Below, piece by piece: positions 5,547 through 58,055 of a stretch of DNA of 64,000 nucleotides (within the stretch, counting starts at the first letter, position 1; each line of letters begins with the position of its first letter). The stretch covers positions 1,521,501-1,585,500 of the forward strand of contig NZ_CP134605.1 of NCBI RefSeq assembly GCF_031844685.1, in the 5' to 3' direction. Source of the stretch: Streptomyces sp. ITFR-21. GTDB taxonomy: Bacteria; Actinomycetota; Actinomycetes; Streptomycetales; Streptomycetaceae. The notes below the pieces were generated by a model that was given only the letters and a program-made list of their open reading frames with translations, ran no database searches and was not told the origin of the DNA. The translations under genes and the position numbers were made by a program.

Positions 5547-6284
5547 TCAGACGTCCGTGACCCGCAGCCCGGCGTGTGCCTTGTACCGGCGGTTGACCGA
5601 GATCAGGTTGGCCACCAGCGACTCCACCTGGTGGGCGTTGCGCAGCCGCCCGGCGAAGATCCCGCGCATGCCGGGGATACGGGCGGCCAGCGCCTGCACG
5701 ATGTCGGTGTCCGCGCGGGACTCGCCGAGCACCATGACGTCGGTGTCGATCTCGTCCACGTCCGGGTTCTGCAGCAGCACCGCCGACAGGTGGTGGAAGG
5801 CGGCGGTCACCCGGGACTCCGGCAGCAGGGCCGCGGCCTGCTGGGCGGCGCTGCCCTCCTCGACGGTGAGCGGGTAGGCGCCCTGCTTGTCGAAGCCGAG
5901 CGGGTTCACGCAGTCGACCACCAGCTTCCCGGTCAGCTCCGCGCGCAGCGACTCCAGGATCTCGGCGTGCCCGTCCCAGGGCACCGCGACGATCACGATG
6001 TCGCTGCGGCGCGCGCACTCGGCGTTGTCGGCGCCCTGGACGCCGTGGCCGAGCTCGGCGGCGGCCTTCTGCGCGCGTTCCGCGGCCCGGGAGCCGATGA
6101 CCACCTGCTGGCCGGCTCTGGCCAGCCGGTAGGCCAGACCGCGGCCCTGGTCGCCGGTGCCGCCGAGCACGCCCACCACGAGGCCCGACACGTCGGGCAG
6201 CTCCCAGGGGTCCTTCGCGGGGGCCTTGGCGGGGGCCGGCTTGCCGTCAGAAGCGTTGTCGTCAGCGTTCGTCGCACTCGTCAT
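5547..6284 (-). CDS. npdG: F420H2:NADP+ oxidoreductase
   Basis: 245 residues from ATG 6284 (MTSATNADDNAS), giving a short polar N-tail before the fold. The Rossmann motif VGVLGGTGDQGRGLAYRLARAG is followed by VVIGSRAAERAQ, the NADP-binding Ser/Arg region. DIVIVAVPWDGH and VVDCVNPLGFDKQGAYPL match the NADP-dependent F420 reductase family, which passes hydride between the deazaflavin F420 and NADP and sets the F420H2 pool in actinomycetes. HHLSAVLLQNP near residue 170 is another conserved block of the family. It is divergent from an MFS gene. Confidence 0.92.
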   Translation of the reverse strand: MTSATNADDNASDGKPAPAKAPAKDPWELPDVSGLVVGVLGGTGDQGRGLAYRLARAGQQVVIGSRAAERAQKAAAELGHGVQGADNAECARRSDIVIVAVPWDGHAEILESLRAELTGKLVVDCVNPLGFDKQGAYPLTVEEGSAAQQAAALLPESRVTAAFHHLSAVLLQNPDVDEIDTDVMVLGESRADTDIVQALAARIPGMRGIFAGRLRNAHQVESLVANLISVNRRYKAHAGLRVTDV

Positions 6285-6391
6285 ACGGGCGATCCTGCCA
6301 GGTCGTACCGGCCGCCGGGGAACAGCCCCGGCGGGCCGGCCGCGGAAAACGCCTTGCCGGGTCCGGCGCCGGGAGGGAAGCATGCGGCCAC

Positions 6392-7783
6392 GTGACCGAC
6401 GACGCGCCCGCTCCCCCGCCGTCCCGCCTGCGGGGCCTGCTGCCCGACCTGGCACCGTGGCGGACCTCCCGCGACTTCCGGCTGATGTGGCTGGCCGGGG
6501 TGATCACCACCTTCGGCAGCTATCTGACCATCGTGGCCCTCCCGGTCCAGGTCAAGGACCTCACCGGGTCGGCGGCGGCGGTGGGCGCGATCGGCGCGGT
6601 GCAGCTGGTGCCGCTGGTCGTCTTCGGGCTGTACGGCGGCGCGCTCGCCGACGCGATGGACCGCAAGCTGCTGATCAACGTCACCGAGGCGGCGCAGGGC
6701 CTGCTGGCCGCCGCCCTGCTGGCCAACACGCTGCTGCCGCATCCCCTGCTGTGGCTGCTGTACGTGACGGCCGCGCTGTCCAGCGCGCTGACCGGGCTCC
6801 AGCGGCCGGCGCTGGACGCGATCGTGCAGCGGATCGTGCCCCGCGGACAGCTCGCCGCGGCGGCCTCGCTGAACGCGCTGCGCTGGCAGGTGGGGGCCAT
6901 CGCCGGGCCGTCCGCCGCCGGCCTGGTGATCGCCTGGGCCGGCCTGAGCTGGGCGTACGCCACCGACACGGTGACCTTCGCGGTCTCGGTCTGCCTGGGC
7001 CTGGGGCTGCGCCGCTCCCCGGCCGCGCACGACGCCGAGCGGCCGTCGCTGCGCGGCATCGCGGAGGGCGCGCGCTACGCCTGGGGCCGCAAGGAGCTGC
7101 TGGGCACCTACGCGATCGACCTGGCCGCGATGTTCTTCGCCTACCCGGTGGCGATCTTCCCGTTCCTCGCCGACGACCTGCACGCGCCCTGGTCGCTGGG
7201 CCTGATGTACGCCGCCGGGTCGGTGGGCTCCCTGCTGGTCAGCCTGACCAGCGGCTGGGCGGCGCGGGTGCACCGGCACGGCCGGATGGTGGTGCTGGCG
7301 GCGGCCGGCTGGGGCGGCGCGATGGCGCTGGCCGGGTGGGCGGGCGGGATCTGGCTGGTGCTGCTGTGCCTGGCGGCGGCCGGCGGGTTCGACATGGTCA
7401 GCGGGATCGGGCGGTCCACGATGTGGAACCAGACCATCCCGGACGAGTTGCGGGGCCGGCTGGCCGGGATCGAGCTGCTGTCGTACTCGGTCGGCCCGCA
7501 GCTGGGCCAGGTCCGCTCCGGCGGGGTCGCCGCGGTCAGCTCGGCGCGGGTCTCGGTCTGGTCCGGCGGCCTGGCCTGCGTCGCCGCGGTGGGCATGCTG
7601 GCGGCGGCGCTGCCGGCGCTGATGCGGTACGACGGGCGCGGCGCGGCGGGCGCCGTCCGGCCCGGCGCGGAGCAGGACCAGAAGCCCGGCACCGGGCCGG
7701 GCCCGGAGACCGGCGGGGGGCCGGGTACGCGGCCGGAGGCGGAACCGGGCCCGGAGCCACGGAACAGCCTGCGGGCCGGCTGA
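6392..7783 (+). CDS. MFS transporter, EntS-like exporter family
   Basis: 463 residues from GTG 6392 (VTDDAPAPPPSRLRG). About twelve hydrophobic segments are visible, with FRLMWLAGVITTFGSYL at the start of the membrane part and the loop GGALADAMDRKLL, an A-motif variant. Conserved blocks RPALDAIVQRIVPR, ASLNALRWQVGAIAGPSAAGLVIA and MWNQTIPDELRGRLAGIELLSYSVGPQLGQVRSG match MFS_3/EntS-like exporters, some of which export siderophores. The C-terminal 50 residues are Gly/Pro-rich and probably disordered. The substrate is unproven; no siderophore genes are adjacent, although the haem locus lies 3.5 kb away. Confidence 0.85.
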   Translation: MTDDAPAPPPSRLRGLLPDLAPWRTSRDFRLMWLAGVITTFGSYLTIVALPVQVKDLTGSAAAVGAIGAVQLVPLVVFGLYGGALADAMDRKLLINVTEAAQGLLAAALLANTLLPHPLLWLLYVTAALSSALTGLQRPALDAIVQRIVPRGQLAAAASLNALRWQVGAIAGPSAAGLVIAWAGLSWAYATDTVTFAVSVCLGLGLRRSPAAHDAERPSLRGIAEGARYAWGRKELLGTYAIDLAAMFFAYPVAIFPFLADDLHAPWSLGLMYAAGSVGSLLVSLTSGWAARVHRHGRMVVLAAAGWGGAMALAGWAGGIWLVLLCLAAAGGFDMVSGIGRSTMWNQTIPDELRGRLAGIELLSYSVGPQLGQVRSGGVAAVSSARVSVWSGGLACVAAVGMLAAALPALMRYDGRGAAGAVRPGAEQDQKPGTGPGPETGGGPGTRPEAEPGPEPRNSLRAG

Positions 7784-7934
7784 CCGGCCACCCGCCGCCG
7801 CGGACGGGCGCCAGCGGGTCCGGGGCGGTTCAGGCCCGGACCGGCGCCGCGGGTCCGGGTGGGCCCAGGCCCGTACCCGCTCCCGCCGGCTCGGCCGTCC
7901 GGCGGGTCGGCCCCCGCCGGCCGACCGACGGCGG

Positions 7935-8174
7935 CTACTGCGCCGGGCGGCCGGGGGCCTCGTCGTCCTTGTCGTGCCAGCGCGGGTCGGTGTCCCACTC
8001 CAGGTTCCGCTCCGCCGCCGCGTCCATCGCCCGCTGCGCCTCCGCGCGGGTCGGGTACGGGCCGAAGCGGTCCTTGGCCGGGCAGTCCGGGCCCTCCTCC
8101 ACCGTCTTGTGTTCGAGGCAGTAGAACCACTCGCCCGGCTTGCCGGCCGGCTTGCGGGCCTTGAACAGGGCCAT
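7935..8174 (-). CDS. Small conserved hypothetical protein
   Basis: 79 residues from ATG 8174 (MALFKARKPAGKPGEWFYC). It contains WFYCLEHKTVEEGPDCPAKDRFG, with two cysteines and a histidine that could form a small metal or structural site. An amphipathic helix (TRAEAQRAMDAAAERN) and an acidic tail follow. A protein like this beside the methionine aminopeptidase gene looks like a conserved actinobacterial arrangement, but the function is not known to me. Confidence 0.7.
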   Translation of the reverse strand: MALFKARKPAGKPGEWFYCLEHKTVEEGPDCPAKDRFGPYPTRAEAQRAMDAAAERNLEWDTDPRWHDKDDEAPGRPAQ

Positions 8175-8250
8175 GGTCGTCCTCCGGGGGTGATCGGGCG
8201 GGTGTCCCTGCCGCCAGCCTGCCCCGAGGAGCGCCGATACACTCGTCGGC

Positions 8251-9108
8251 ATGTCTGGTCCCTCGCTGCTCGTCCCCGGGAAGCTGTCACCCACCCGGCC
8301 GGTCCCCGCCTCGATTCCGCGCCCCGAGTACGTGGGCAGGCCCGGCCCCGCGCCGTACACGGGACCGGAGGTGCAGGACGAGGAGACCGTGGCGCGGATG
8401 CGGATCGCCTCGCGGATCGCCGCCCAGGCGATGGAGGAGGCGGCGAAGGCCGTCGCACCCGGGGTGACCACGGACGAGCTGGACCGGATCGCGCACGAGT
8501 TCATGGTCGACCACCAGGCGTACCCGTCGGACCTGGGCTACCGCGGGTTCCCCAAGTCGCTGTGCACCTCGCTGAACGAGGTGATCTGCCACGGCATCCC
8601 GGACTCGACCGTGCTGCGCGACGGCGACATCGTCAACCTGGACGTGACCGCGTACATCCACGGGGTGCACGGCGACTGCAACGCCACCTACCTCGTCGGC
8701 GACGTGGCCGAGGAGTCACGGCTGCTGGTGGAGCGCACCCGGGAGTCGCTGGACCGGGCGATCAGGGCGGTACGCCCCGGGCGGCAGATCAACGTCATCG
8801 GCCGGGTGATCGAGTCATACGCCAAGCGCTTCGGCTACGGGGTGGTACGGGACTTCACCGGGCACGGCATCAACACCTCGTTCCACTCCGGGCTGATCAT
8901 CCCGCACTACGACGACCCGCGGGCGACCACCGTGATGCGGCCCGGCATGACCTTCACCATCGAGCCGATGCTGACCCTGGGCACCCACGAGTACGAGGTG
9001 TGGGAGGACGGCTGGACGGTCGTCACCAAGGACCGCAGGCGGACCGCCCAGTTCGAGCACACCCTGGTGGTCACCGCGGACGGCGCCGAGGTCCTGACGC
9101 TGCCCTGA
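8251..9108 (+). CDS. map: Methionine aminopeptidase, type I
   Basis: 285 residues from ATG 8251. It removes the initiator Met from new proteins. The metal ligands are in place: the Asp pair in [19 protein letters not shown], the His in [11 protein letters not shown], and the Glu residues in [10 protein letters not shown] and [16 protein letters not shown] carries the substrate-site His. An N-terminal extension of about 40 residues, with [14 protein letters not shown], is of the linker type found in actinobacterial MetAP forms. It is divergently placed from the small hypothetical gene. Confidence 0.96.
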
Positions 9109-38376: not shown

Positions 38377-38624
38377 TGGCCGCCCCCCTCGTCAGCGGCT
38401 CCCGGGTGCTGGGCGTGCTGGGCGTGCTGGGCGTGCTGGAGGTACTCGACCCCGCCCCGCAGGCCCACGGCCAGCTCTCCGAGCTGGACCTGCTCAGCAT
38501 GTTCGCCCGCCAGGCCGCCGCCGCGCTGCGCGTCCTCTTCGACCGCCCCGCCTCCGACCCCGGCCGCCGCGCCAACGCCCTCCGCCTCATCGGTGCCGTC
38601 CAGGGCCTCCTCCTCGACGGCTGA
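38376..38624 (+). pseudogene. GAF-domain C-terminal fragment
   Basis: 82 residues (MAAPLVSGSRVLGVLGVLGVLEVLDPAPQAHGQLSELDLLSMFARQAAAALRVLF) match only the last third of a GAF domain, which normally needs 130 or more residues. The N-terminal part is gone; the upstream sequence is the kinase tail. A 9-base array duplicates GVL. The 3' end overlaps the convergent metal ATPase by 38 bases. It may be a fusion relic or an expressed stub. Confidence 0.6.
38412..38438. repeat. 9-base tandem repeat in the GAF fragment
   Basis: Three exact copies of GGCGTGCTG encode GVLGVLGVL within the GAF core strand, where a single GVLEVL would be expected. Confidence 0.85.
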
Positions 38625-40614
38625 GGCCCGGCCGCCCGGCGCCGACGGCGGGCTGCCAGGCACGGTCGGCGAGCAGCCGCAGGCCGTTGAGCCCGACGAT
38701 GACGGTGGAGCCTTCGTGGCCGGCGACACCCAGCGGCAGCGGCAGGTGCCCGACCAGGTCCCAGACCACCAGGCCGGTGATGAACACCCCGGCGATCACC
38801 AGGTTGTGCACCACCAGGCGGTGCGCGGTTCGGGACAGGCCCACCACGGTCGGGACGGTGCCCAGCTCGTCGCGGACGACGACGGCGTCGGCGGTCTCCA
38901 GGGCCAGGTCGGATCCGGCCCGGCCCATGGCGATGCCGGTGTGGGCGGCGGCGAGCGCCGGGGCGTCGTTGACACCGTCGCCGACCACCAGCACCCTGCG
39001 TCCGGCGTCCTGCATCTCCCGCACGGCGGTGACCTTGTCCTGGGGCAGCAGCCCGGCGCGGACGTCGGTGATGCCGGCCTCGGCGGCCAGTCGGGCGGCG
39101 GCACGCGGGTTGTCGCCGGTGACGAGGGTCGGGCCGGTCCCGGTGAGCGCGGCCAGCGCGGTGACGGTGGCGGCGGCCTCCGCCCGCAGCCGGTCGGCGA
39201 TGCCCAGCACCCCCGCCGGAGCGCCGTCGACCAGGACCAGGACCGCGGTGCGGCCCTGGTCCTCCAGTTCCGCGGCCACCACCGCGGCGGAGCCGCTGTC
39301 GGAGGCGCTGTCGGAGGCGTCCAGCAGGCGCGCGGGACTGCCCACCGAGACCGTCCGCCCCTCGACGGCGGCGGTGACCCCGGCGCCCGGGGCGGAGGCG
39401 AAGCCGGCGGCGGGGGGAACGCCGAGGCCGCGGGCGCGGGCGGCGTCGGTGACCGCGCGCGCCAGCGGGTGCTCGCTGGCGTGCTCGGCGCCGGCGGCCA
39501 GGCGCAGCAGGGCGTCCTCGTCCAGGCCGCGCCCGGCCAGCGGCCGGACGTCGGTGACGCGGGGGGTCCCCTCGGTCAGGGTGCCGGTCTTGTCCAGCGC
39601 GACCGCGTCGATCCGCCCGAGCCGCTCCATGACGACGGCGGACTTCACCAGCACGCCGTGGCGTCCGGCGTTGGCGATCGCGGACAACAGCGGCGGCATG
39701 GTGGCCAGGACCACCGCGCACGGCGAGGCGACGATCATGAACGTCATCGCCCGCAGCAGCGTCGGCTGCAGCGCGGCGCCGAAGGCCAGCGGCAGGGCGA
39801 ACAGCGCGACCGTGGCGGCGACCATGCCCAGGCTGTAGCGCTGCTCGACCTTCTCGATGAACAGCTGCGTCGGCGCCTTGGTCTGCGAGGCGTCCTCGAC
39901 CATCCTCACGATCCGGGCGATCACCGAGTCCGACGGGTCGCGCTCCACCCTCACCCGCAGCGCCCCGGTGCCGTTCAGGGTTCCGGCGAACACCTCGTCC
40001 CCGACCCCCTTGGCCACCGGCAGCGGCTCGCCGGTGATGGTCGCCTGGTCCACCTCGCCGGCCCCGTCCAGGACCCGGCCGTCGGCGCCGATCCGCTCAC
40101 CGGGCCGCACCAGGACCGTGTCGCCGACCGCCAACCGGTCCGTCGGCACCGTTTCCTCCCGGCCGCCGTCCAGCAGCCGGGCGGCCGTGGCCGGCGCGAG
40201 GTTCAGCAGGCCGCGCACCGAGTCGGCGGTACGGGCGGTGGCCAGCGCCTCCAGCGCCCCGGAGGTGGCGAAGATGACGATCAGCAGCGCCCCGTCGAGG
40301 ACCTGGCCGACCGCCGCCGCGCCGATCGCGGCGACCACCATCAGCACGTCCACGTCCAGTGTCCCGGCCCGCAGCGCTTTCAGCCCGGCCCAGCCCGGCT
40401 CCCAGCCGCCGGCGACGTAGGCCGCGGCGAACAGCGGGCCCCACGTCCACACCGGCGCGGCCAGCAGATCCAGCGGCAAGGCCGCCAGGAACAGCACCAG
40501 CGCCGCCAGCGCCCAGCGGGCCTCCGGCAGCGCCAGCGCCCGGGTACGCCGCCGGGAGTCCGCGTCGCGGCGGACGGTCGCCGACGGGGCGGACCTGGTC
40601 ACGGTGGTGGACAT
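38587..40614 (-). CDS. PIB-4 type heavy-metal P-type ATPase
   Basis: 675 residues from ATG 40614 (MSTTVTRSAPSATV) with AAGGA upstream. It has no N-terminal heavy-metal domain. The metal site in the sixth helix reads IVASPCAVV (SPC rather than CPC), the phosphorylated Asp is in DKTGTLTEG, the hinge is VVGDGVNDAPALA, and the last helices hold VAGHEGSTVIVGLNGLRLL. SPC plus HEGS is the mark of PIB-4 pumps (CtpD/CoaT group), which export Co2+, Fe2+ or related ions. The divergent ArsR gene at 40702 shares the operator region and probably controls it. The last residues overlap the GAF fragment. Confidence 0.93.
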   Translation of the reverse strand: MSTTVTRSAPSATVRRDADSRRRTRALALPEARWALAALVLFLAALPLDLLAAPVWTWGPLFAAAYVAGGWEPGWAGLKALRAGTLDVDVLMVVAAIGAAAVGQVLDGALLIVIFATSGALEALATARTADSVRGLLNLAPATAARLLDGGREETVPTDRLAVGDTVLVRPGERIGADGRVLDGAGEVDQATITGEPLPVAKGVGDEVFAGTLNGTGALRVRVERDPSDSVIARIVRMVEDASQTKAPTQLFIEKVEQRYSLGMVAATVALFALPLAFGAALQPTLLRAMTFMIVASPCAVVLATMPPLLSAIANAGRHGVLVKSAVVMERLGRIDAVALDKTGTLTEGTPRVTDVRPLAGRGLDEDALLRLAAGAEHASEHPLARAVTDAARARGLGVPPAAGFASAPGAGVTAAVEGRTVSVGSPARLLDASDSASDSGSAAVVAAELEDQGRTAVLVLVDGAPAGVLGIADRLRAEAAATVTALAALTGTGPTLVTGDNPRAAARLAAEAGITDVRAGLLPQDKVTAVREMQDAGRRVLVVGDGVNDAPALAAAHTGIAMGRAGSDLALETADAVVVRDELGTVPTVVGLSRTAHRLVVHNLVIAGVFITGLVVWDLVGHLPLPLGVAGHEGSTVIVGLNGLRLLADRAWQPAVGAGRPGLSRRGGGPGRHR

Positions 40615-40668
40615 GGCAGGCGAGTCCTTCGCGGGAGGGAGGCCGACCCGCCCACCATACAGGACTGT

Positions 40669-40692
40669 ATGAACAGTCATTCATTCGTTCAT
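40669..40692. promoter_or_regulatory. Candidate ArsR/SmtB operator between the metal ATPase and its regulator
   Basis: ATGAAC at 40669-40674 is mirrored by GTTCAT at 40687-40692, with an AT-richer 12-base centre. TGAA/TTCA arms are typical of ArsR/SmtB metal-sensor operators. It lies between divergent genes. Confidence 0.65.
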
Positions 40693-40701
40693 GTCCGTAG
40701 A

Positions 40702-41118
40702 ATGGTGGCCATGGGCCATGGAGCGAACGTCCCGACCGACAGCGCCGCACCGCGCGCCGCGTTGACCGCGCAGAACGCGCCCAAGGTCGCGGCCACCCTC
40801 CAGGCCCTCGCCACGCCCTCCCGGCTGCTGATCCTGGCCCGGCTGCGCGAGGGGCCGCTGCCCGCCACCGAACTGGCCGCCGCCGTCGGCATGGAGCAGT
40901 CCGCGTGCTCCCACCAACTGCGCCTGCTCCGTAACCTCGGCCTGGTCACCGGCACCCGCCAGGGCCGCTCCGTCGTCTACGCCCTCTACGACGACCACGT
41001 CGCCGAACTGCTCGACCAGGCCCTCTACCACGTCGAACACCTCCGCCTCGGCGTCACCGACACCCCGGCCGGCGCGGACCGGCCGCACTCCGCCTCCCCG
41101 GCGCCCACGGCGCGCTGA
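40702..41118 (+). CDS. ArsR/SmtB family metal-responsive repressor
   Basis: 138 residues from ATG 40702 (MVAMGHGANVPTDS); ATG 40711 is an alternative and no good ribosome site precedes either, so a leaderless message is possible. The winged helix is seen as LQALATPSRLLILARLREGPLPATELAAAVGMEQSACSHQLRLLRNLGLVTGTRQGRSVVYALYDDHVAELLDQALYHVEHL. The C-terminal DDHV/H region, with His residues in LYHVEHL, matches the alpha-5 metal site of NmtR/CzrA-like sensors for Co/Ni/Zn. It should leave the operator when metal binds and so switch on the divergent ATPase. Confidence 0.92.
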   Translation: MVAMGHGANVPTDSAAPRAALTAQNAPKVAATLQALATPSRLLILARLREGPLPATELAAAVGMEQSACSHQLRLLRNLGLVTGTRQGRSVVYALYDDHVAELLDQALYHVEHLRLGVTDTPAGADRPHSASPAPTAR

Positions 41119-41214: not shown

Positions 41215-42144
41215 TCACTCGACCGCGCCGCGCACCAGTACGGCGGGCTCCGCCGCCCTCCAGTCGTACTGGCCGCCCCGCGCCAGGAACTTGGCGCGGT
41301 CCAGGGTCACCTGCCGCAGCGCGGCGGCGGCTCCGACGCTCAACACGCTTTCGCTGTAGGAGTAGTGGCCGTCGACGTTGTCGAAGAACCGGCCCGCCGG
41401 ATCGAGCATCGCGTAACTGCCGGTCATCGCGTCGTTGTCCTCACAGACGACGTCGATGCCGTGCCGCGCCACCCACAGGTGCCGGGAGGCGAAGGCCCGG
41501 AACTCCTCGTCGGTGACACGCAACGGATTGTCGTACCCGCCGTTCTGCCCGTCGATGGGCAGCATCTGCAGGATCTTCCAGCGGCGAGGCGCGGCGTCCA
41601 GGAGGAACGACGAGAGGTCCTCCCCCAGGTTCGCCCGGGTGACGACGGTGTTGATCTTCAGACTGATTCCGGCGTTCCGCACGTCCAGGCACAGCGACCG
41701 GTAGGCGTGCTCCGGTATCGCCCGGCCGGCGGTCGTCCTGCCGAGCCTGGTCAGCACGTCGGGCACGAGGCTGTCGACGCTCAGCACCAGCCAGTCCAGT
41801 ACGCCGGCGAGCCCGGTGACGTCCTTCACCAGCGAGCCGTTCGTGACGATCGAGGTGACCATCCCCCGCTGATGGGCCCGTGCCACGAGATCGGGCAGCC
41901 ATGGGCACAGGAAGGGCTCACCGCCGGCGAAGGTGATCTTCTGGAAGCCCTCGTCCGCCAGCGCGTCCACCACCCGCAGGGCGTCCCGCGCGGGCAGGTG
42001 GCCGGCGGGCAGGACGTCCCTGCGGACGTCCTTGAACTGCGCGAAGCAGAAGCCGCAGTGCATGTTGCACGGCTGCCAGATGTGGAAGTTCACCGCCTTT
42101 ATCGGGGGCGGCACCCGTGCGGTGCCGCCGACGGTGCTCACCAT
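41215..42144 (-). CDS. Prokaryotic viperin, antiviral radical SAM enzyme
   Basis: 309 residues from ATG 42144. The Fe-S cluster motif CNMHCGFCF (Cys 26, 30, 33) is followed by FAGGEPF (SAM binding, residues 72-78) and IVTNGSL. RWKILQMLPIDGQNGG, CEDNDAMTGSYAMLDPAGRF and the C-terminal block FLARGGQYDW (residues 286-295) match the viperin family, the last corresponding to FLKRGGKYIW of human viperin. The enzyme should convert a nucleoside triphosphate to its 3'-deoxy-3',4'-didehydro form, a chain terminator. The start overlaps the stop of the phosphatase gene by 7 bases, so it is the third gene of a coupled operon. Confidence 0.9.
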   Translation of the reverse strand: MVSTVGGTARVPPPIKAVNFHIWQPCNMHCGFCFAQFKDVRRDVLPAGHLPARDALRVVDALADEGFQKITFAGGEPFLCPWLPDLVARAHQRGMVTSIVTNGSLVKDVTGLAGVLDWLVLSVDSLVPDVLTRLGRTTAGRAIPEHAYRSLCLDVRNAGISLKINTVVTRANLGEDLSSFLLDAAPRRWKILQMLPIDGQNGGYDNPLRVTDEEFRAFASRHLWVARHGIDVVCEDNDAMTGSYAMLDPAGRFFDNVDGHYSYSESVLSVGAAAALRQVTLDRAKFLARGGQYDWRAAEPAVLVRGAVE

Positions 42145-42959
42145 CCCGGGACGGCGAGCGCCAGTTCCGACAGGTCGGCCGCGAGTTTGCGGCTCCTGGC
42201 CGCGACGAAGGAGACCGGCGAACTGTGCAGGGACTTGCGGAGTTCGAGCGGCCGGCCGTCAAGGCCGAGTACGGTCCCGCCCGCGGCCTGGACGAGAAGG
42301 ATCCCCGCGCACACGTCCATGAGTGCCGCGTTGCGGGCGACCATGGCGTCGATGGCCCCGCTGCCGACCAGGGCCAGGTCCAGGGCCGGCGCCCACATCG
42401 TCGTGACGCGCTTGCAGTTGCCGCTGAGCATGTCCTCGATGTGCCGTCCGGTGACCCTTCCCTCCACGGAGTAGTCCGTGACGAGCGCGACGGTGGCGTC
42501 GCGCAGGGCCGTCGCCGCGGCAAGGTCGCCCGATCGAGGCGTATCGCCGGCGGTGGCGGTGAACGTACGGCCGAGGAGCGGATCGAGCACCACGGCCAGC
42601 ACGGCCGCGTCACCGGCGAACAGGGTGATGGCCACAGCGCAGTGCGCGATGCCGTAGCCGAAGTTGTTGGTACCGTCCAGCGGATCGACCACCCAGGTCA
42701 GGTCCGTCTCGTCCCAGCCGCCCTGCATTCCCTCCTCGGAGACGATCCCGTAGTCGGGGAACAGGTCGGTCAACTGTCGGACGATCACCCGCTGCGACGT
42801 CAGGTCGGCCCGTAACTGCACGTCATAGTGGCCCTTGCGTTGTACGACCTTGCGGTCCCCGAAGTCCGCGCGGATCACCGAGCCGGCCTCTCTGGCAGCC
42901 GAGACGGCGGCTTTCATTTCCTTCTGCCACCCCTTGGTCAGTGTGATCGACGGATTCAT
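42138..42959 (-). CDS. Inositol-monophosphatase-family phosphatase in the viperin operon
   Basis: 273 residues from ATG 42959 (MNPSITLTKGW); its ATG overlaps the TAA of the upstream gene as TAATG. The Mg2+ site is complete: SEEG (residues 74-77), VVDPLDGTNNFGYG (92-104) and the last Asp in LMDVCAGILLVQAAGGTV. The family covers inositol monophosphatases, fructose bisphosphatases and the 3'(2'),5'-bisphosphate nucleotidases (CysQ). Next to viperin a nucleotide substrate is attractive, but sequence does not decide the substrate. The stop overlaps the viperin start, so translation is probably coupled. Confidence 0.9.
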   Translation of the reverse strand: MNPSITLTKGWQKEMKAAVSAAREAGSVIRADFGDRKVVQRKGHYDVQLRADLTSQRVIVRQLTDLFPDYGIVSEEGMQGGWDETDLTWVVDPLDGTNNFGYGIAHCAVAITLFAGDAAVLAVVLDPLLGRTFTATAGDTPRSGDLAAATALRDATVALVTDYSVEGRVTGRHIEDMLSGNCKRVTTMWAPALDLALVGSGAIDAMVARNAALMDVCAGILLVQAAGGTVLGLDGRPLELRKSLHSSPVSFVAARSRKLAADLSELALAVPGW

Positions 42960-44728
42960 TACGGGTACTCCTCCTCCGCAGAATTCTGATTCTGCTGTCG
43001 TCTGATCTTGTATTCCTCTACCACAACGGGAGGCGCCAGCGCTCCGACGGCCGCCACAACAGCGGTGCCCACCCATTTCGCCAACTGCCCTAAGGCAGAT
43101 CCGCCGGATGCGCCGATGATGTTCAACTGCCGGAAAGCGAGAAGGACGACGAAGACGGTGAGCAAGGAAAGCCATGCGGTAGTCACATACGACCGCGCAC
43201 CGCTGGTCAACGGGGCGGCAGAGGAGGAGATCCGCTTTCCGAGGGATTTCTCCAGAGCCTCCAGCTGTCTTTCGTGATAAGCGGAGAGGGCGACGGCGTC
43301 CAATCGCTCGGCACTGCGCGCGGTGATGCTGCGCAGGGCGAACAGCGCGTCGTGGCAGGCCCAGACGGGGAAATCCCCCGGCGCGGTCAGCCCGCTCCGC
43401 CAGGCCCCGTCCGCCGTCTGCATGCGCAGGAGCTTGAGAGTGCCGTGCAGCAGCGTCGGATCGCTGAGGTCCCGGCCCGTCGCGCTGAGGGCGGCCAGCG
43501 CCCAGGGCGTGGCGAAGTGCCTGAAGTCCAGCCGCGCGAAGGAGTTGTTGTCGACGACCGTGGTGAAGGAGGTGGAGGTCCACGGCTCCTCCCGTGCCGG
43601 GTCGAAGGCGCCGTCGAGGTAGGCGCAGCCCCTGACGATGTGGCGCTCGCCCGGGTCGACGCCCTGGCTCAGCAGCGCGAGCAGCGCGTGCGCCGTGTAG
43701 GCGGGGGACGACGTGGACTCCGCGTCCGCGGCCGCCGACCTCGGGTGGCGCGCGACCGGGCCCCAGCCGCCGTCGGCGTTCTGCGCGGTCCGCAGCCACT
43801 CGACGCCGCGGCGCGCGGGCGTGGTGCGCCCCAGGGTCGCGAGGACGCGGACGGCCCAGGCGGTCGCGACCACGTTCGACGTACTGTCCGCCGCCGACGA
43901 CTTCCAGCCGCCGTCGGCCTGTTGGGCCGTCTCCAGCCATGCGAGCCCCCGTTGCACGGCGGGGGTGTCGTCGCCTCGGCCCGCTTCGCTGAGGGCCATC
44001 AGGCAGTAGGCCGTGCTTTCCGTGATGGACACGTCGCTCAGCGCCCCCACCAGGGCACGGCGGATCTGCCAGCCGCCGTCGGGGTTCTGAAGCGCCCCCA
44101 ACGTCTCCCCCGCGGCGTCCACGATGCGCACCCGGCTGCCGGCGTACACGTGCGAGAGCAGGGCCTGGGCCGTGGAGAGAACTCCTATGGTCCGGCCGTC
44201 CTGGTATTGGTTCCACCCCTGCATGCCGCTCTCCACCGAGACGTGCGCGTCCAGGTAGTCCACGGCACCCTCCACCGCCCTGCGCAGGGAGAGGCCCAGG
44301 GCGCCGGCCGTGCTCTCCGCCGTCCGCCGTTGGAGCGCCAGGGTGAAGACGCCTTCGCCCGGCAGGTCGCCGGTCAGATGGGGGAGGTCCTCGACCCGGT
44401 GGGACGTGAGGCGCTGCGCGCCCCGCGCGGCCGCGTTCACCGGCGGCGTCTCCGCTCCCACGAAAAGGCGCAGGTCCTCGGCCGCCTCGTCGACGGCCAG
44501 CACGCCGAAGTAGGAGATGTCGAGGTGCAGCTGGCTCCTCGCCGCCTCCACGACGGCGGTCCGCAGGTCCGTCTGACGCAGCCGTCCGACGCCGATCACC
44601 AGTCGAGGACAGCGCCTGCGGCCGGGTTCCCCCGTCAGATAGAAGACCTCCGCGTCCCGCTGCACCAGCATGAGCCAGATGATCAGCTTTCCCATGTCCT
44701 GCGCGTGATGCGATCCGGCGGTCGCCAA
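42959..44728 (-). CDS. Membrane-anchored alpha/alpha-toroid (prenyltransferase/squalene-oxidase repeat) protein
   Basis: 589 residues from TTG 44728 with GAGAGG seven bases upstream; ATG 44695 is possible. About residues 13-100 form a strand-rich domain (LIIWLMLVQRDAEVFYL, RLVIGVGRLRQTDLRTAVVEA) that recalls a degenerate Nudix-like fold; this is a weak inference. Residues 145-470 contain QW-type repeats: QNPDGGW (214-220), QQADGGW (269-275), QNADGGW (316-322), QTADGAW (437-443). No DxDD cyclase acid is seen in the expected form. Two hydrophobic helices (about 513-532 and 548-570) precede a charged tail EYKIRRQQNQNSAEEEY. It heads the viperin operon and could be the membrane effector or a lipid-binding sensor. 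Confidence 0.85.
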   Translation of the reverse strand: MATAGSHHAQDMGKLIIWLMLVQRDAEVFYLTGEPGRRRCPRLVIGVGRLRQTDLRTAVVEAARSQLHLDISYFGVLAVDEAAEDLRLFVGAETPPVNAAARGAQRLTSHRVEDLPHLTGDLPGEGVFTLALQRRTAESTAGALGLSLRRAVEGAVDYLDAHVSVESGMQGWNQYQDGRTIGVLSTAQALLSHVYAGSRVRIVDAAGETLGALQNPDGGWQIRRALVGALSDVSITESTAYCLMALSEAGRGDDTPAVQRGLAWLETAQQADGGWKSSAADSTSNVVATAWAVRVLATLGRTTPARRGVEWLRTAQNADGGWGPVARHPRSAAADAESTSSPAYTAHALLALLSQGVDPGERHIVRGCAYLDGAFDPAREEPWTSTSFTTVVDNNSFARLDFRHFATPWALAALSATGRDLSDPTLLHGTLKLLRMQTADGAWRSGLTAPGDFPVWACHDALFALRSITARSAERLDAVALSAYHERQLEALEKSLGKRISSSAAPLTSGARSYVTTAWLSLLTVFVVLLAFRQLNIIGASGGSALGQLAKWVGTAVVAAVGALAPPVVVEEYKIRRQQNQNSAEEEYP

Positions 44729-45929: not shown

Positions 45930-46433
45930 CGGCCACACCGTCGCCGTCCGGGCGTACGACGTGATCCGCATGTGTCGCGGGACGGGCGGCCGACCCCGCT
46001 GGGCGACGCGATCGCGCACTACGGGCGGATCGCCAAGTCCTGGCACATCCTGCGCCTGGCCGACCAGCCCGGCTACCGCCGCCAGATCAGGGCACAGGCC
46101 AACCTCCAGGAAGGCCGCCACGCGCTCGCCCGGAAGATCTTCCACGGCCGCGCGGGGCAGCTCTACCAGCGCTACCAGGACGGCATAGAGGACCAGATCG
46201 GCGCCCTCGGCCTGGTCTTCAACGCCGTGGTGCTCGTCAAAACCCGGTACATGGACGCAGCGGTCAACCATCTGCGGGCGGACGGGGCCGAGGTTCGCGA
46301 CAAGGACATCGCCCGCCTCTCACCGTTCGTACGCCAGCACATCAACATGCACGGCCGGTACTCATTCAAGCTCCCCGACCTGCCCGGGGGCATGCGCTCC
46401 CTGCGCGACCCGGACATGGCCGACGAGGCGTAA
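45930..46433 (+). pseudogene. Tn3-family transposase C-terminal remnant
   Basis: From GDAIAHYGRIAKSWHILRLADQPGYRRQIRAQANLQEGRHALARKIFHGRAGQLYQRYQDGIEDQIGALGLVFNAVVLVKTRYMDAAVNHLRADGAEVRDKDIARLSPFVRQHINMHGRYSF to the stop the frame is a Tn3-type DDE transposase end. A short upstream piece (YDVIRMCRGTGGRP) continues it in another frame, so there is a frameshift near 45990. The first 800 or so residues of a Tn3 transposase are absent. It marks an old transposon insertion next to sodF. Confidence 0.85.
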
Positions 46434-47388: not shown

Positions 47389-48390
47389 TCACCGGCGGCT
47401 GTCGCCGGGCGCCAGCAGGCCGGTCACCTCGGCGATGGCGTCCGGGGAAGGCTTGAAGTAGCGGCGGACGTTCTCCGGCTTCTTGTGCCTCGACTTGGCC
47501 ATCAGCATCAGCAGGGAGGCGCCCTGCTCGCCGAGGTGGGTCAGGCCGGAGTGCCGCCACTCGTGCAGATCCCATCCGGTACCGGCCACGCTTCCGACTG
47601 CCGTGTGCCGGTCCGGCAACGCGCGAGCCTGACCGTACGACAGCCGGGCCAGCCCGGTGTCCGGGCACACGTCGCGCGGCCCGAGCACCTTGCCGGGGTT
47701 GGGGCGGCGATGAGTGACGAACACCGGGCCACGGGTGCGGCCGCGCAGCAGCCGGGGCAGCAGCCGGGGCAGCAGCCGCGCGGTACCGGTGTCCCGGTGG
47801 ACCGTCTCCAGCACGAAGTCCCCGCGCGTCCGGCCGCCCCGGCGGCGGCGGGCGGCGGCTCCCTTGGCCTTTACCGGCGCCCGCCGGCCGGCCAGGTCGA
47901 GGTCCTCGATGTTCGTCCCGAGGATCTCCTCGGCCCGCGCACAGGTCTCGTAGAGCATCCGCCACAGCGTCTTCTCCCGCAGCGGGTCCTCCCGGCGGGC
48001 GATGAGCCGGTCGACCATCACCTTCGGCCGAACCTGGGTCTCGGAGTCCGGCGGGGTCATCCGCTTCACCCAGGCCGGGGCCGCCGGGCCGTCGTAGCCG
48101 TGGTCCGCGCACCAGCCGAGCCAGGACAGCACCGCCGCGCGGCGGGCATTCCAGGTGTTGACCGCGGCGGTGCCCCACAGCAGTTCCAGCGCCTCGCCGA
48201 CCTCGTCGTCGACCACGGCCGCCAGGAGCCGGTCCTCGCCGAGCCGTTCGGCGGTCTTCTCGACGCCGATGCCGTAGCCGCGGGCGGTGTTCGGGTTGGC
48301 AAGTAAGCCGAGGAAGACATCGGCCGCCGACCAAACGCTCAGCGCCTTCCCGGACTGGAGCTGGACGACGGCGGGCACCGCTTCCCCCAT
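47389..48390 (-). CDS. Tyrosine recombinase/integrase
   Basis: 333 residues from ATG 48390. The catalytic Arg is in [19 protein letters not shown], the HxxR motif in [18 protein letters not shown], a Lys/His region in [16 protein letters not shown], and the nucleophile Tyr is in RRYF. The N-terminal core-binding domain is short. The 12-base array at 47746-47778 gives [12 protein letters not shown] in the catalytic domain, an odd feature. It is not related closely to the recombinases at 50-57 kb. No tRNA gene is recognisable beside it, so its attachment site is unclear. Confidence 0.85.
47746..47778. repeat. 12-base tandem repeat inside the integrase gene
   Basis: Two exact copies of CAGCAGCCGGGG plus most of a third encode the LLPR repeats. 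Confidence 0.75.
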
Positions 48391-48712: not shown

Positions 48713-49444
48713 CTATCCCTGGGCGGTGGGGCGAACCACGATGTCGCCTACATCGACACCGTCCGGCTGCTCGATGGCGAAGGCGATGGCGCGGGCCACC
48801 GCGTCGGGCGAAAGAGCGGTCTCCATCATCTTGTCGATCTGGGTTTTCACCGCCGGATCCATGCGCTCTGCGAAGTCCGTGCGGACGGCGCCGGGAGAGA
48901 CGACGGTGACGCGCAGGCTGTCGCCGGCCTCTTGCCGCAAGCCCTCGGAGATGGTGCGGACGGCGTTCTTCGTGCCGGCGTACACCGACTGGAGCGGCAC
49001 GATACGCAGTCCGGCGGTGGACACGGTGTTGACGAAGTGCCCGAAGCCCTGCTCCCGGAAGACGGGAAGGGCCGCGGCGATCCCGTACAGGACCCCTTTG
49101 AGGTTGACGTCGATCATCTCCTCCCAGTCCTCGACGCGCAGGTCATCCAGACGGGAGATCAAGCCGATCCCGGCGTTGCTGACGAGGACGTCGAGCTGGC
49201 CGTATCGATCGCTTGCCAGCTTGACGAGGCCGGCAAGGTCCTTGCGTCGCGTCACGTCCGTGCGGGCCCAGACGGCTTCACCGCCCGCCTCTTCGATGCG
49301 GGCGGCCAGAGCCTCAAGACGCTCCGGACGGCGTGCCCCGAGGACGATCTTTGCACCGCGCTCGGCGAGCAGAAGCGCGGTCGCCTCGCCGATGCCGCTG
49401 CTGGCGCCCGTGATCGCCACGACTTTGCCTTCGATTCCCGACAT
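48713..49444 (-). CDS. SDR family oxidoreductase
   Basis: 243 residues from ATG 49444. The cofactor motif is VVAITGASSGIGEATALLLAERGAKIVLGARR (favouring NADP by the Arg pair), NAG is in VLVSNAGIG, and the catalytic Ser-Tyr-Lys is in VNTVSTAGLRIVPLQSVYAGTKNAVRTI. It is a classical short-chain dehydrogenase of about the standard length. Its promoter region is shared with the divergent TetR gene and contains a paired palindromic operator, so its substrate or product may be the TetR ligand. Confidence 0.93.
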   Translation of the reverse strand: MSGIEGKVVAITGASSGIGEATALLLAERGAKIVLGARRPERLEALAARIEEAGGEAVWARTDVTRRKDLAGLVKLASDRYGQLDVLVSNAGIGLISRLDDLRVEDWEEMIDVNLKGVLYGIAAALPVFREQGFGHFVNTVSTAGLRIVPLQSVYAGTKNAVRTISEGLRQEAGDSLRVTVVSPGAVRTDFAERMDPAVKTQIDKMMETALSPDAVARAIAFAIEQPDGVDVGDIVVRPTAQG

Positions 49445-52267: not shown

Positions 52268-53218
52268 TCAGCTCCAGGTCATGTTGATCGCACGCTCGAA
52301 ATTGATGTATCCAGCGCGCCGGAAGGCGTTCGCCATCGGGAGGTTGCCGAGGTCTGTGGACGCGCGGATGCGGGGGACGTTCTGCTCGGCGAGGACTCGG
52401 GTGCCCTCGGCGAGGATGTCGTCGATGTAGCCGTTGCCGCGGTGCGAGGGCAGGACCGCGATGTAGGCGATGATCGCGTTGTAGTCGTTGCGGGCTGGGA
52501 TGACGAACCCCACTGGCTGTCCGTGAGGCAGTGTTGCGATGCGCCACCAGTCCCGCGGGCTGGTGTAACGCGCCAGCTCGTCCTCGTAGTGCCGGACGGC
52601 CGCTTCGCGTACTGACATCCGCGTCATGTCGTCACGACCGTGTGCGTCCAGCGTCCCGTCCAGAACTGAGGTCATCAGAGCCACAAGTTCCTCGTCGTCG
52701 TGGACCGGCCGGAAGGCAAGGCGCCCGCTGGGCTCGGGGGCTGGCGATTCCGGACGCCATTCCAGGCGCAGTCGTTCGACGAAGAGTCGGGCGCCGGTCC
52801 GTTCAAGTACCGTCATACGGTCTTCGACGGCTTGTCTGGTTGCAGCGTTCTCACGCCAGTCCGGGGGGACGAAACGGTTGTACTCAGGTGGGCGCGACCC
52901 GTTCGGGAGGGTAGCGGTCATCGCGGTGCGCAGAAGTTGCGCCCCGATGTCCAGGTGATCGGAGCCTGAGGCGCTGTCTTCGATGTCGAGGATATCCAGG
53001 ATGAGTGGTGCGTCGCCGACTGATCGGCTCCACCAGGCTGCCCTGGCGAGCAGGCGGTCGCCCCGCAGGGCGACCCACATCCACTCGGGACGCCGACGGC
53101 CGCCGGCAAGGTCGTCCGCCAGCTCCCCGTTGAGGACGTAGGGCAGTTGGGAGAACAGGTCGAGTTCTTCGTGTCCGGTGATCGGACGCATGGTCAGGTC
53201 GTTCGTTTTCACGGTCAA
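52268..53218 (-). CDS. GNAT N-acetyltransferase, probably two-domain
   Basis: 316 residues from ATG 53218. The C-terminal half has a clear GNAT core: PVGFVIPARNDYNAIIAYIAVLPSHRGNGYIDDIL (acetyl-CoA loop HRGNGYI) and ANAFRRAGYINFERA. The N-terminal half (EWMWVALRGDRLLARAAWW) may be a second, degenerate GNAT domain. The substrate is unknown. It lies between the separated halves of a recombinase gene and so looks like cargo brought in by rearrangement. Confidence 0.88.
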   Translation of the reverse strand: MTVKTNDLTMRPITGHEELDLFSQLPYVLNGELADDLAGGRRRPEWMWVALRGDRLLARAAWWSRSVGDAPLILDILDIEDSASGSDHLDIGAQLLRTAMTATLPNGSRPPEYNRFVPPDWRENAATRQAVEDRMTVLERTGARLFVERLRLEWRPESPAPEPSGRLAFRPVHDDEELVALMTSVLDGTLDAHGRDDMTRMSVREAAVRHYEDELARYTSPRDWWRIATLPHGQPVGFVIPARNDYNAIIAYIAVLPSHRGNGYIDDILAEGTRVLAEQNVPRIRASTDLGNLPMANAFRRAGYINFERAINMTWS

Positions 53219-53450: not shown

Positions 53451-54825
53451 GTGTGTCAATTTAACGGCTGATCTTGGGGTTTGAGGTTCAGTTGTTGGCC
53501 GGGGTGAGCCGGCCCTCGAAGGCGATCTGGAAGGCGTTCAAGGGCGCTATCCAGCGCATGGTCCACCTCTTGCGGCCCTTGCCGGTCGGGTCGAGACTCA
53601 TCAGCGCCATGTACACACACTTCAGGGCGGCGGCCTCGGTGGGGAAGTGGCCCCGGGCGCGGACGGGCTTGCGTATCCGCGCGTTGACGGATTCGATGGC
53701 GTTCGTCGGGCAGATGACGGTGCGGATCTCGACGTCGAAGGAGAGAAACGGCACGGACTCGGCCCAGGCGCTCTCCCACAGTTGGACGATCGCCGGGTAC
53801 TTCTTCCCCCAGGCGTCCTGGAACTCACCGAAGCGTTCGCCCGCCGCGCTCTGGTTCGGCGCGGTATAGACGGGCTTGAGCGCCTTGGCGGTCTTGTCCC
53901 AGTCCGCGCGCGAGGCGTATCGGAAGCTGTTGCGCAGGAGGTGGACGATGCACTTTTGCACAATGGTGCGGGGCCAGACCGTCCCGACCGCGTCGGGCAG
54001 GCCCTTGAGCCCGTCGCAGACCGGCATCAGCACGTCGTCCAGGCCGCGGTTCCTCAGCCCGGTGAACACCTGCAGCCAGTACTGCGCACCCCCGCCGCCG
54101 TCGCCGGCCCAGATGCCCAGGATGTCCCGGGTGCCCTCGGCGGTGACGGCCATGACCACGGAGACGGGCCGGTTCGCGACCTTCCCGTCCCGGATTTTCA
54201 CGTTGACGGCGTCCACGAACAGGACCGGGCAGACGCGGTCCAGCGGCCGGTTCTGCCGTTCGGCCATGCCGTCCATCACCTGGCCGGTGATGGTGGAGAT
54301 GGTCTGTTTCGAGACCCCGGCGCCGTAGACCCCGGCCAGGTGCGCGGAGATCTCCCCGTGGGTGGGGCCCTTCGCGGACAGCGACAGCACCATCTCATCC
54401 ACACCCGTCAGCCGCCGCCGCCGCTTCCTGACGGTCTGCGGCTCGAAGCTGCCCTCCACGTCCCTCGGCACCTTGCCCTCGACCGGCCCGACATCCGTCA
54501 GCACGGTCTTCGCCCGAGTGCCGTTGCGGCTGCTGCCGCTGTTCTTCCCCGCCGGATCGTGCTTGCCGTAGCCGAGGTGACCGGTGATCTCACCCTCCAG
54601 CACAGCCTCCAGCACACCCTCCAGCACCCGCTTGGCCAGCTGCTGCAACAGCCCACCCGCACCAGTCAGCTGCACGCCCTCACTCCGGGCCCGCTCGACC
54701 AGCATCGCGATCAACCGCTCGCCCGACGTGACCACACCGACCGGCTCAGCCACGGACTCCGGCTCGATCGTCATCTCACTCACTTGGCGTCTCCATGATC
54801 AACAGATCCGCCGTTTATGAGACAC
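53451..54825 (-). mobile_element. IS256-family insertion sequence
   Basis: The element is bounded by imperfect inverted ends of about 25 bases: GTGTGTCAATTTAACGGC at 53451 and the reverse complement of 54801-54825 (GTGTCTCATAAACGGC). One transposase gene fills it. No matching direct duplication flanks it: the right flank runs into recombinase sequence but the left flank does not. Confidence 0.85.
53488..54783 (-). CDS. IS256 family transposase
   Basis: 431 residues from ATG 54783. The DDE catalytic blocks are present: the first Asp in CPVLFVDAVNVKIRDG, the second in VCDGLKGLPDAV, and the Glu in CPTNAIESVNARIRK. RNGTRAKTV and the DNA-binding N-domain (GHLGYGKHDPAGKNSG) are typical. The frame is intact with no stops, so the element may be active. 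It carries no other gene. Confidence 0.95.
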   Translation of the reverse strand: MSEMTIEPESVAEPVGVVTSGERLIAMLVERARSEGVQLTGAGGLLQQLAKRVLEGVLEAVLEGEITGHLGYGKHDPAGKNSGSSRNGTRAKTVLTDVGPVEGKVPRDVEGSFEPQTVRKRRRRLTGVDEMVLSLSAKGPTHGEISAHLAGVYGAGVSKQTISTITGQVMDGMAERQNRPLDRVCPVLFVDAVNVKIRDGKVANRPVSVVMAVTAEGTRDILGIWAGDGGGGAQYWLQVFTGLRNRGLDDVLMPVCDGLKGLPDAVGTVWPRTIVQKCIVHLLRNSFRYASRADWDKTAKALKPVYTAPNQSAAGERFGEFQDAWGKKYPAIVQLWESAWAESVPFLSFDVEIRTVICPTNAIESVNARIRKPVRARGHFPTEAAALKCVYMALMSLDPTGKGRKRWTMRWIAPLNAFQIAFEGRLTPANN

Positions 54826-57642: not shown

Positions 57643-58055
57643 GGCAGACGAGTCGGGCTGTACGCCGGGTTCTGTGCCCCGGGGCCTCGCGGTCGTCGGG
57701 GCGACGGCCATCCATCTAGGACTGCCGTTGCCGGCAGCCTCGTGCGGTCTACCCGCGGACTCGGGCGGGCAGCCCTCGGACGTCCGCGCGGGCGCCGTAT
57801 CGCTACGGCGCCCTCTTGACCTTGCTCCAGGTGGGGTTTACCTAGCTGCCCAGGTCGCCCTGGGCACTGGTGGTCTCTTACACCACCGTTTCACCCTTAC
57901 CGGCGGCCGAGGCCGCCGGCGGTCTGTTTTCTGTGGCACTGTCCCGCGGGTCACCCCGGGTGGGCGTTACCCACCACCCTGCCCTGTGGAGCCCGGACGT
58001 TCCTCGGCGGGTCCCGTGAGGGATCCGACGCGGCCGTCCGCCCGGCTCGTCTGCC
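57643..58055 (-). ncRNA. rnpB: RNase P RNA, bacterial type A
   Basis: About 413 bases on the minus strand. The ends GGCAGACGAG at 58055 and CTCGTCTGCC at 57643 pair as stem P1. Conserved core pieces are present in order: GAGGAACGTCCGGGCTCC, ACAGTGCCACAGAAAACAGACC, TGGTGTAAGAGACCACCA, GTAAACCCCACCTGGAGCAAG, and TACAGCCCGACTCGTCTGCC at the end. It is the catalytic RNA that removes 5' leaders from tRNA precursors. It is a core gene and marks where the accessory region to its left ends. Confidence 0.97.

Follow-up and report, generated by a model that had tools for sequence, protein, structure and literature searches.

A Streptomyces viperin shares a conserved three-gene unit with a toroid protein and a phosphatase of the IMPase family, which likely sense or clear its predicted antiviral nucleotides

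What becomes of the 3'-deoxy-3',4'-didehydro nucleotides (ddh-nucleotides) once a bacterial viperin has made them, and how the host avoids being poisoned by its own product, are questions which to our knowledge are still open, and they are raised by a three-gene operon in a stretch of 64,000 nucleotides from the genome (7.36 Mb) of Streptomyces sp. ITFR-21 (contig NZ_CP134605.1, positions 1,521,501 to 1,585,500; this whole stretch is referred to below as the window). The operon occupies positions 41215-44695 of the minus strand and its genes encode, in transcript order, a protein with a predicted alpha/alpha toroid (42959-44695), an IMPase-family phosphatase (42138-42959; 273 residues) and a prokaryotic viperin of the radical SAM family (41215-42144; 309 residues). 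Each gene overlaps the next, by 1 nucleotide in the sequence TAATG (42957-42961) and by 7 nucleotides in ATGGTGA (42138-42144), and a direct reading of the minus strand confirms both overlaps as they were given in the original prediction. The third-position GC of the three genes is 0.88, 0.88 and 0.93, and a scan for promoters and terminators found 0 and 1, respectively, which is not above shuffled sequence. The toroid protein has 578 residues when started at the ATG at 44695, as in the public prediction of the same protein, and 589 when started at the TTG at 44728; its length and residue numbers are based here on the ATG. Since other actinobacteria have the trio too, often with its genes differently arranged, and a plasmid of a distantly related bacterium also carries it, the toroid protein and phosphatase of the trio are likely to sense or clear the antiviral nucleotides predicted from the viperin.

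The recurrence is seen at 11 toroid loci from genome and plasmid searches (the window and L033-L042), the surroundings of all of which were read. The phosphatase gene adjoins the toroid gene in 11/11 and a viperin gene is within the gene group in nine (the window, L034, L035 and L037-L042). The order toroid-phosphatase-viperin is found in the window, L041 and L042, and the order viperin-toroid-phosphatase in L034, L035 and L037-L040, all six of which have 4-nucleotide overlaps at both junctions. Among 394 genomes of the class, the toroid is present in 3 and a viperin over the cut-off in 3, and these are the same three genomes, the window's own included. In 279 genomes of the family of genome G644, the toroid is found in 8 and the viperin in 8, with both in 7, the exceptions being genome G1010, which has a toroid without a viperin, and genome G825, whose viperin is without a toroid match nearby; the toroid and viperin searches of each genome set are taken here as one sample, as they agree in size and listing. 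The toroid is also present in 2 of the 391 genomes of a further search, again including the window's own, and a search of 34 further genomes from the genus of the window gave no viperin over the cut-off. The pairwise identities across the nine trio loci are closely correlated (r of 0.967 for viperin and phosphatase, 0.945 for viperin and toroid, and 0.955 for phosphatase and toroid; Mantel p 0.0002 each). Further, the actinobacterial L041 and the gammaproteobacterial L042 are mutually nearest for all three genes, the L042 toroid being compared by its C-terminal piece only. L042 lies on a plasmid of Candidatus Thiodictyon syntrophicum, where the trio is surrounded by integrase and transposase/IS genes. 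The search of plasmids gave a toroid in 1 record and a viperin in 5, of which 3 were examined; the same search for the phosphatase at a limit of E 1e-30 gave none, the Thiodictyon copy being too divergent to pass it. The three genes form a conserved unit, which may move between lineages as a whole. The view that its genes act together is borne out by this recurrence, and the outcome that had been named as telling against it, viz. that toroid and phosphatase homologues are rarely found beside a viperin, is not what the loci and the 394 genomes display.

The viperin of the window is by its sequence a prokaryotic viperin (pVip). It passes the NCBI model for this group (NF038283; 275.4 bits, cut-off 180), is matched by the pVip models of PADLOC (best 313 bits), and aligns over its full domain with solved viperins, the residues common to these being retained. 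The radical SAM motif CxxxCxxC is formed by C26, C30 and C33, and both this motif and RWK are intact in 10/10 aligned viperins, viz. those of the nine trio loci and that of S. apocyni, which is 71% identical to the window viperin. The nearest named relatives of both the toroid protein and the viperin are from Streptomyces. As described in PMC10865869, viperins make ddh-nucleotides that stop transcription. Where the window viperin differs from other pVips is in its companions. Nucleotide kinases had been regarded as the more familiar companions, in agreement with the annotation of the 2 cyanobacterial plasmid viperins that were examined out of the 4 found; in contrast, a scan of 10 neighbouring genes in the window gave no kinase, and the viperin gene sits between the phosphatase gene and an ArsR gene. 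Likewise, hicA or relE genes accompany the pVips that are treated in PMC10865869, whereas the window viperin is accompanied by the toroid and the phosphatase.

The phosphatase is a member of the inositol monophosphatase superfamily (PF00459, 139 bits against a cut-off of 27), and its metal-ligand residues (E75, E76, D92, D95, G96, T97 and D215) are invariant in 8/8 aligned copies. However, it falls under the cut-off of every one of the 8 NCBIfam models that it matches (HisN, 99.7 against 275.15; CysQ, 87.2 against 228.8; PRK10757, 82.6 against 332), because of which its substrate cannot be named from its family. An assignment to the CysQ, HisN or SuhB type was considered and rejected, as these equivalog cut-offs are not reached. 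The trio phosphatases are further distinguished from those families by two motifs of their own, DVQL and WAPA, which are invariant in 8/8, and in a tree they form a clade separate from three paralogues encoded in the window's own genome (support 98/96), the latter being on long branches.

The toroid protein has three parts, all on the minus strand. Residues 1-125 (44321-44695) are predicted to adopt a Nudix fold, a domain that the original prediction had missed; the structures matched by this domain include those of the regulator NrtR and of MutT2 with CDP or dCTP. The Nudix box of hydrolases has the motif REUxEExGU. Its glutamates are not conserved in the trio domain, an acidic residue being present at the three positions, placed by eye, in 2/40, 11/40 and 3/40 rows, and this sets the domain apart from Nudix hydrolases and from Nudix-fold regulators such as NrtR; an identity as a Nudix hydrolase is rejected for this reason. 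Residues 126-471 (43283-44320) are predicted to form the alpha/alpha toroid, in which T225-E226, R392 and TPW are invariant, and residues 500-573 (42977-43198) contain two hydrophobic helices, which hydropathy and the model suggest to be a membrane hairpin. Two hydrophobic C-terminal segments are present in 26/26 aligned rows, the window's own counted; the structure model, whose predicted local distance difference test (pLDDT) score is 86.5, contains the helices in blocks with a pLDDT of 50-78, a confidence that is low to middling. The protein matches PF13243 (82 bits, cut-off 26) and its family has 57 close members, including that of the window. In a profile search the toroid is closest to drimenyl diphosphate synthase and squalene-hopene cyclase, and its predicted fold is that of class II terpene cyclases. 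DxDD is the catalytic motif of these cyclases, according to PMC11035983. However, the matching stretch of the toroid is SITEST, and none of six listed cavity-side motifs contains DxDD. The toroid protein is therefore not an ordinary class II terpene cyclase, and it differs from the two named enzymes also in being a single toroid with a Nudix-fold N-terminus and hydrophobic C-terminal helices. A link to isoprenoid-like proteins had been called noteworthy at the outset; a plain role as an isoprenoid cyclase is, due to the absence of DxDD, not supported. The link of the viperin's partners to nucleotides is partly supported, by way of the predicted Nudix fold.

The most economical reading of these results is that the viperin makes an antiviral nucleotide and that the other two proteins handle it. 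We tentatively favour a specific form of this reading, in which the partners bind and dephosphorylate the ddh-nucleotide predicted for the viperin. If the viperin converts a nucleoside triphosphate into a chain-terminating ddh-nucleotide, then this product would stop phage transcription; the toroid protein, anchored as predicted in the membrane, would bind it through the pseudo-Nudix domain, the toroid would hold it or act on it, and the phosphatase would strip its phosphate, by which the product would be cleared or retuned. Recognition of a nucleotide by the pseudo-Nudix domain, action of the phosphatase on ddh-nucleotides and protection against phage by the trio are each inferred.

Several observations weigh against this reading. 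In L033 and L036 (2/11 toroid loci), the toroid-phosphatase pair occurs without a viperin and is thus not confined to it. Five of the 8 toroid genomes in G644's family are from one genus, so that these counts are not independent, and the correlation of identities is partly due to shared descent within one genus. The viperin of genome G825 is split over two frames, with no toroid or phosphatase match in 19.9 kb; in S. apocyni, 55 residues of the phosphatase remain, and the toroid has no match within 20.9 kb. The L042 toroid gene (6098-8960) is split in two by an IS630 transposase gene, its phosphatase and viperin genes being open, and the toroid profile match in L041 crosses one in-frame stop. 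No model of the PADLOC 2023 library matches the toroid or the phosphatase, none of the 10 neighbours in the window has a PADLOC match, and searches of phage records and pattern scans of viral contigs gave no relative of the toroid or the viperin.

At the two loci that lack a viperin, a gene for a CYTH-like protein and a cupin-like gene stand beside the toroid-phosphatase pair (L033:7303-8740 and L036:6803-8037), and this gene set is possibly a sister system. Both names are weak. The CYTH-like protein scores 13.5 bits against Pfam in L036, under the cut-off of 23.2, and has no match in L033; searches of PDB sequences and NCBIfam gave no CYTH relatives, and the name is drawn solely from this Pfam match and from EIERKF, which we take to be a CYTH signature. 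The name cupin-like comes from a reading of the sequence and from one homologue labelled cysteine dioxygenase. A wider sample was surveyed by a proxy in which two genes on contigs of equal length are counted as linked (57 toroids; 119 typed of 120 viperins listed, of 1,611 found; 47 cupins). By this proxy, a viperin is linked to at least 17 of the 57 toroids, a cupin to at least 6 and both to none, with 34 undecided. Cupin and viperin matched each other once, at 1,360 bases, which is too short for both whole genes and is thus a coincidence. The proxy misses some linkages, viz. P0018, which is on the L035 contig, and P0047 and P0048, which are near-identical to the L038 and L039 toroids; all three have a viperin and went unmatched. 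In a tree built from 61 toroid rows, of which 33 have no label, the six cupin-labelled rows are nested among viperin-labelled rows and need one change, which suggests a swap from viperin to the CYTH-like/cupin pair; the P-row labels in this tree are from the proxy, the branch support is 53 and the root is at the midpoint. The apparent exchange of partners points to a reusable nucleotide-handling core.

Horizontal gain of the window operon fits its setting, because the DNA match of relatives stops before the operon on its left and mobile-element genes are found on its right. The left flank has a gene pair for a P-type ATPase and an ArsR regulator (38587-41118), which ends just short of the operon and is conserved in relatives; of 35 genomes searched, 7 relatives were compared, and in these the match stops 97-162 bases before the operon, with no DNA match to the trio. 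To the right are a Tn3 transposase remnant (45972-46433) and an integrase (47389-48390), followed further out by a Mutator transposase (53488-54783). At a distance of 4-8 kb from the operon are an SDR gene (48713-49444) and a GNAT gene (52268-53212), the Tn3 remnant, a SOD gene and the integrase standing between the operon and the SDR gene. A location in a defence island, for which a check had been proposed, was not found at this locus, where mobile-element genes are present and no neighbour among the 10 matches PADLOC. The window also contains an RNase P class A RNA gene (57645-58049, minus strand; 279 bits). Elsewhere, the locus flanks differ by eye outside one genus, the trio alone being common to them. 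A NACHT-domain gene of 936 residues (L041:4693-7503; PF05729, 31 bits against 26.7) is found about 2 kb upstream of the L041 toroid. The split viperin of G825 (L051:9362-10242) has in its vicinity a gene of the AIR-synthase family and a weak match to a phosphoribosyltransferase, and in S. apocyni the C-terminal stretch to which the phosphatase is reduced (L022:9790-9999) precedes an open viperin gene.

Other explanations of the trio assign its proteins different roles. It is possible, and in our estimate unlikely, that the pseudo-Nudix domain serves as a sensor of a nucleotide linked to infection, with the membrane toroid as an abortive effector, the phosphatase as an off-switch and the viperin acting in parallel or upstream. 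The fusion of a predicted Nudix fold to a toroid and hydrophobic helices, the toroid-phosphatase pairs without viperin and the NACHT gene near the L041 toroid would all suit such a system; however, the best structural matches of the toroid are enzymes, and neither pores nor toxins, and the invariant polar residues T225, E226 and R392 suit ligand binding or catalysis. More doubtful is the proposal that viperin, phosphatase and cyclase-like toroid form a small biosynthetic unit making a nucleoside or terpenoid natural product, with no part in immunity. The profile matches to the two cyclases, the retained metal ligands of the phosphatase and the SDR and GNAT genes nearby are in its favour, as is the cav cluster of S. 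clavuligerus, in which such a synthase adjoins a Nudix hydrolase (PMC11035983). Nevertheless, DxDD is absent and the Nudix-box glutamates are not conserved, the 10 neighbours scanned include no P450, the SDR gene is separated from the operon as noted above, and the differing flanks leave only the trio in common.

If the toroid instead acts on the product of the viperin itself, then Glu226 would protonate the C3'=C4' bond of a ddh-nucleotide held by the pseudo-Nudix domain, after which the phosphatase would dephosphorylate it, a scheme that appears improbable to us. The invariant Glu226 lies close to where class II cyclases have their proton donor, and it aligns with residue 303 of drimenyl diphosphate synthase in 3/5 alignments. 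However, its equivalence to the general acid of this synthase is a lead only, because all three matching chains are D303E mutants, in which the glutamate is there by design, the alignment gap shifts for the D303A entry, and the squalene-hopene cyclase alignment stops short of this residue. Were this scheme true, the trio would be a membrane-docked pathway maturing or destroying ddh-nucleotides, with a toroid and phosphatase core able to exchange viperin for the CYTH-like/cupin pair. Lastly, it is highly improbable that the toroid and phosphatase are unrelated metabolic hitchhikers placed beside the viperin by chance. The rarity of the toroid in the three genome searches (2/391, 3/394 and 8/279) and the viperins with no toroid or intact phosphatase beside them (S. 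apocyni, G825 and two cyanobacterial plasmids) could be so explained, but the overlaps retained in a permuted order, the congruent divergence and the presence in two phyla could not readily be, and the co-occurrence in the 394- and 279-genome searches points to an association of the three genes above chance.

The system is rated as a putative viperin defence variant, what is new in it being the uncharacterised toroid and phosphatase companions. Prokaryotic viperins, including a survey of their neighbour genes, were reportedly described by Bernheim et al. in 2021. No publication joining a viperin with toroid or IMPase-family partners was found in a search that did not reach the neighbour tables of that work. 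As viperin is inherited along with a phosphatase and a predicted membrane protein with a Nudix fold, and is found with both in two phyla, the fate of ddh-nucleotides becomes directly testable.

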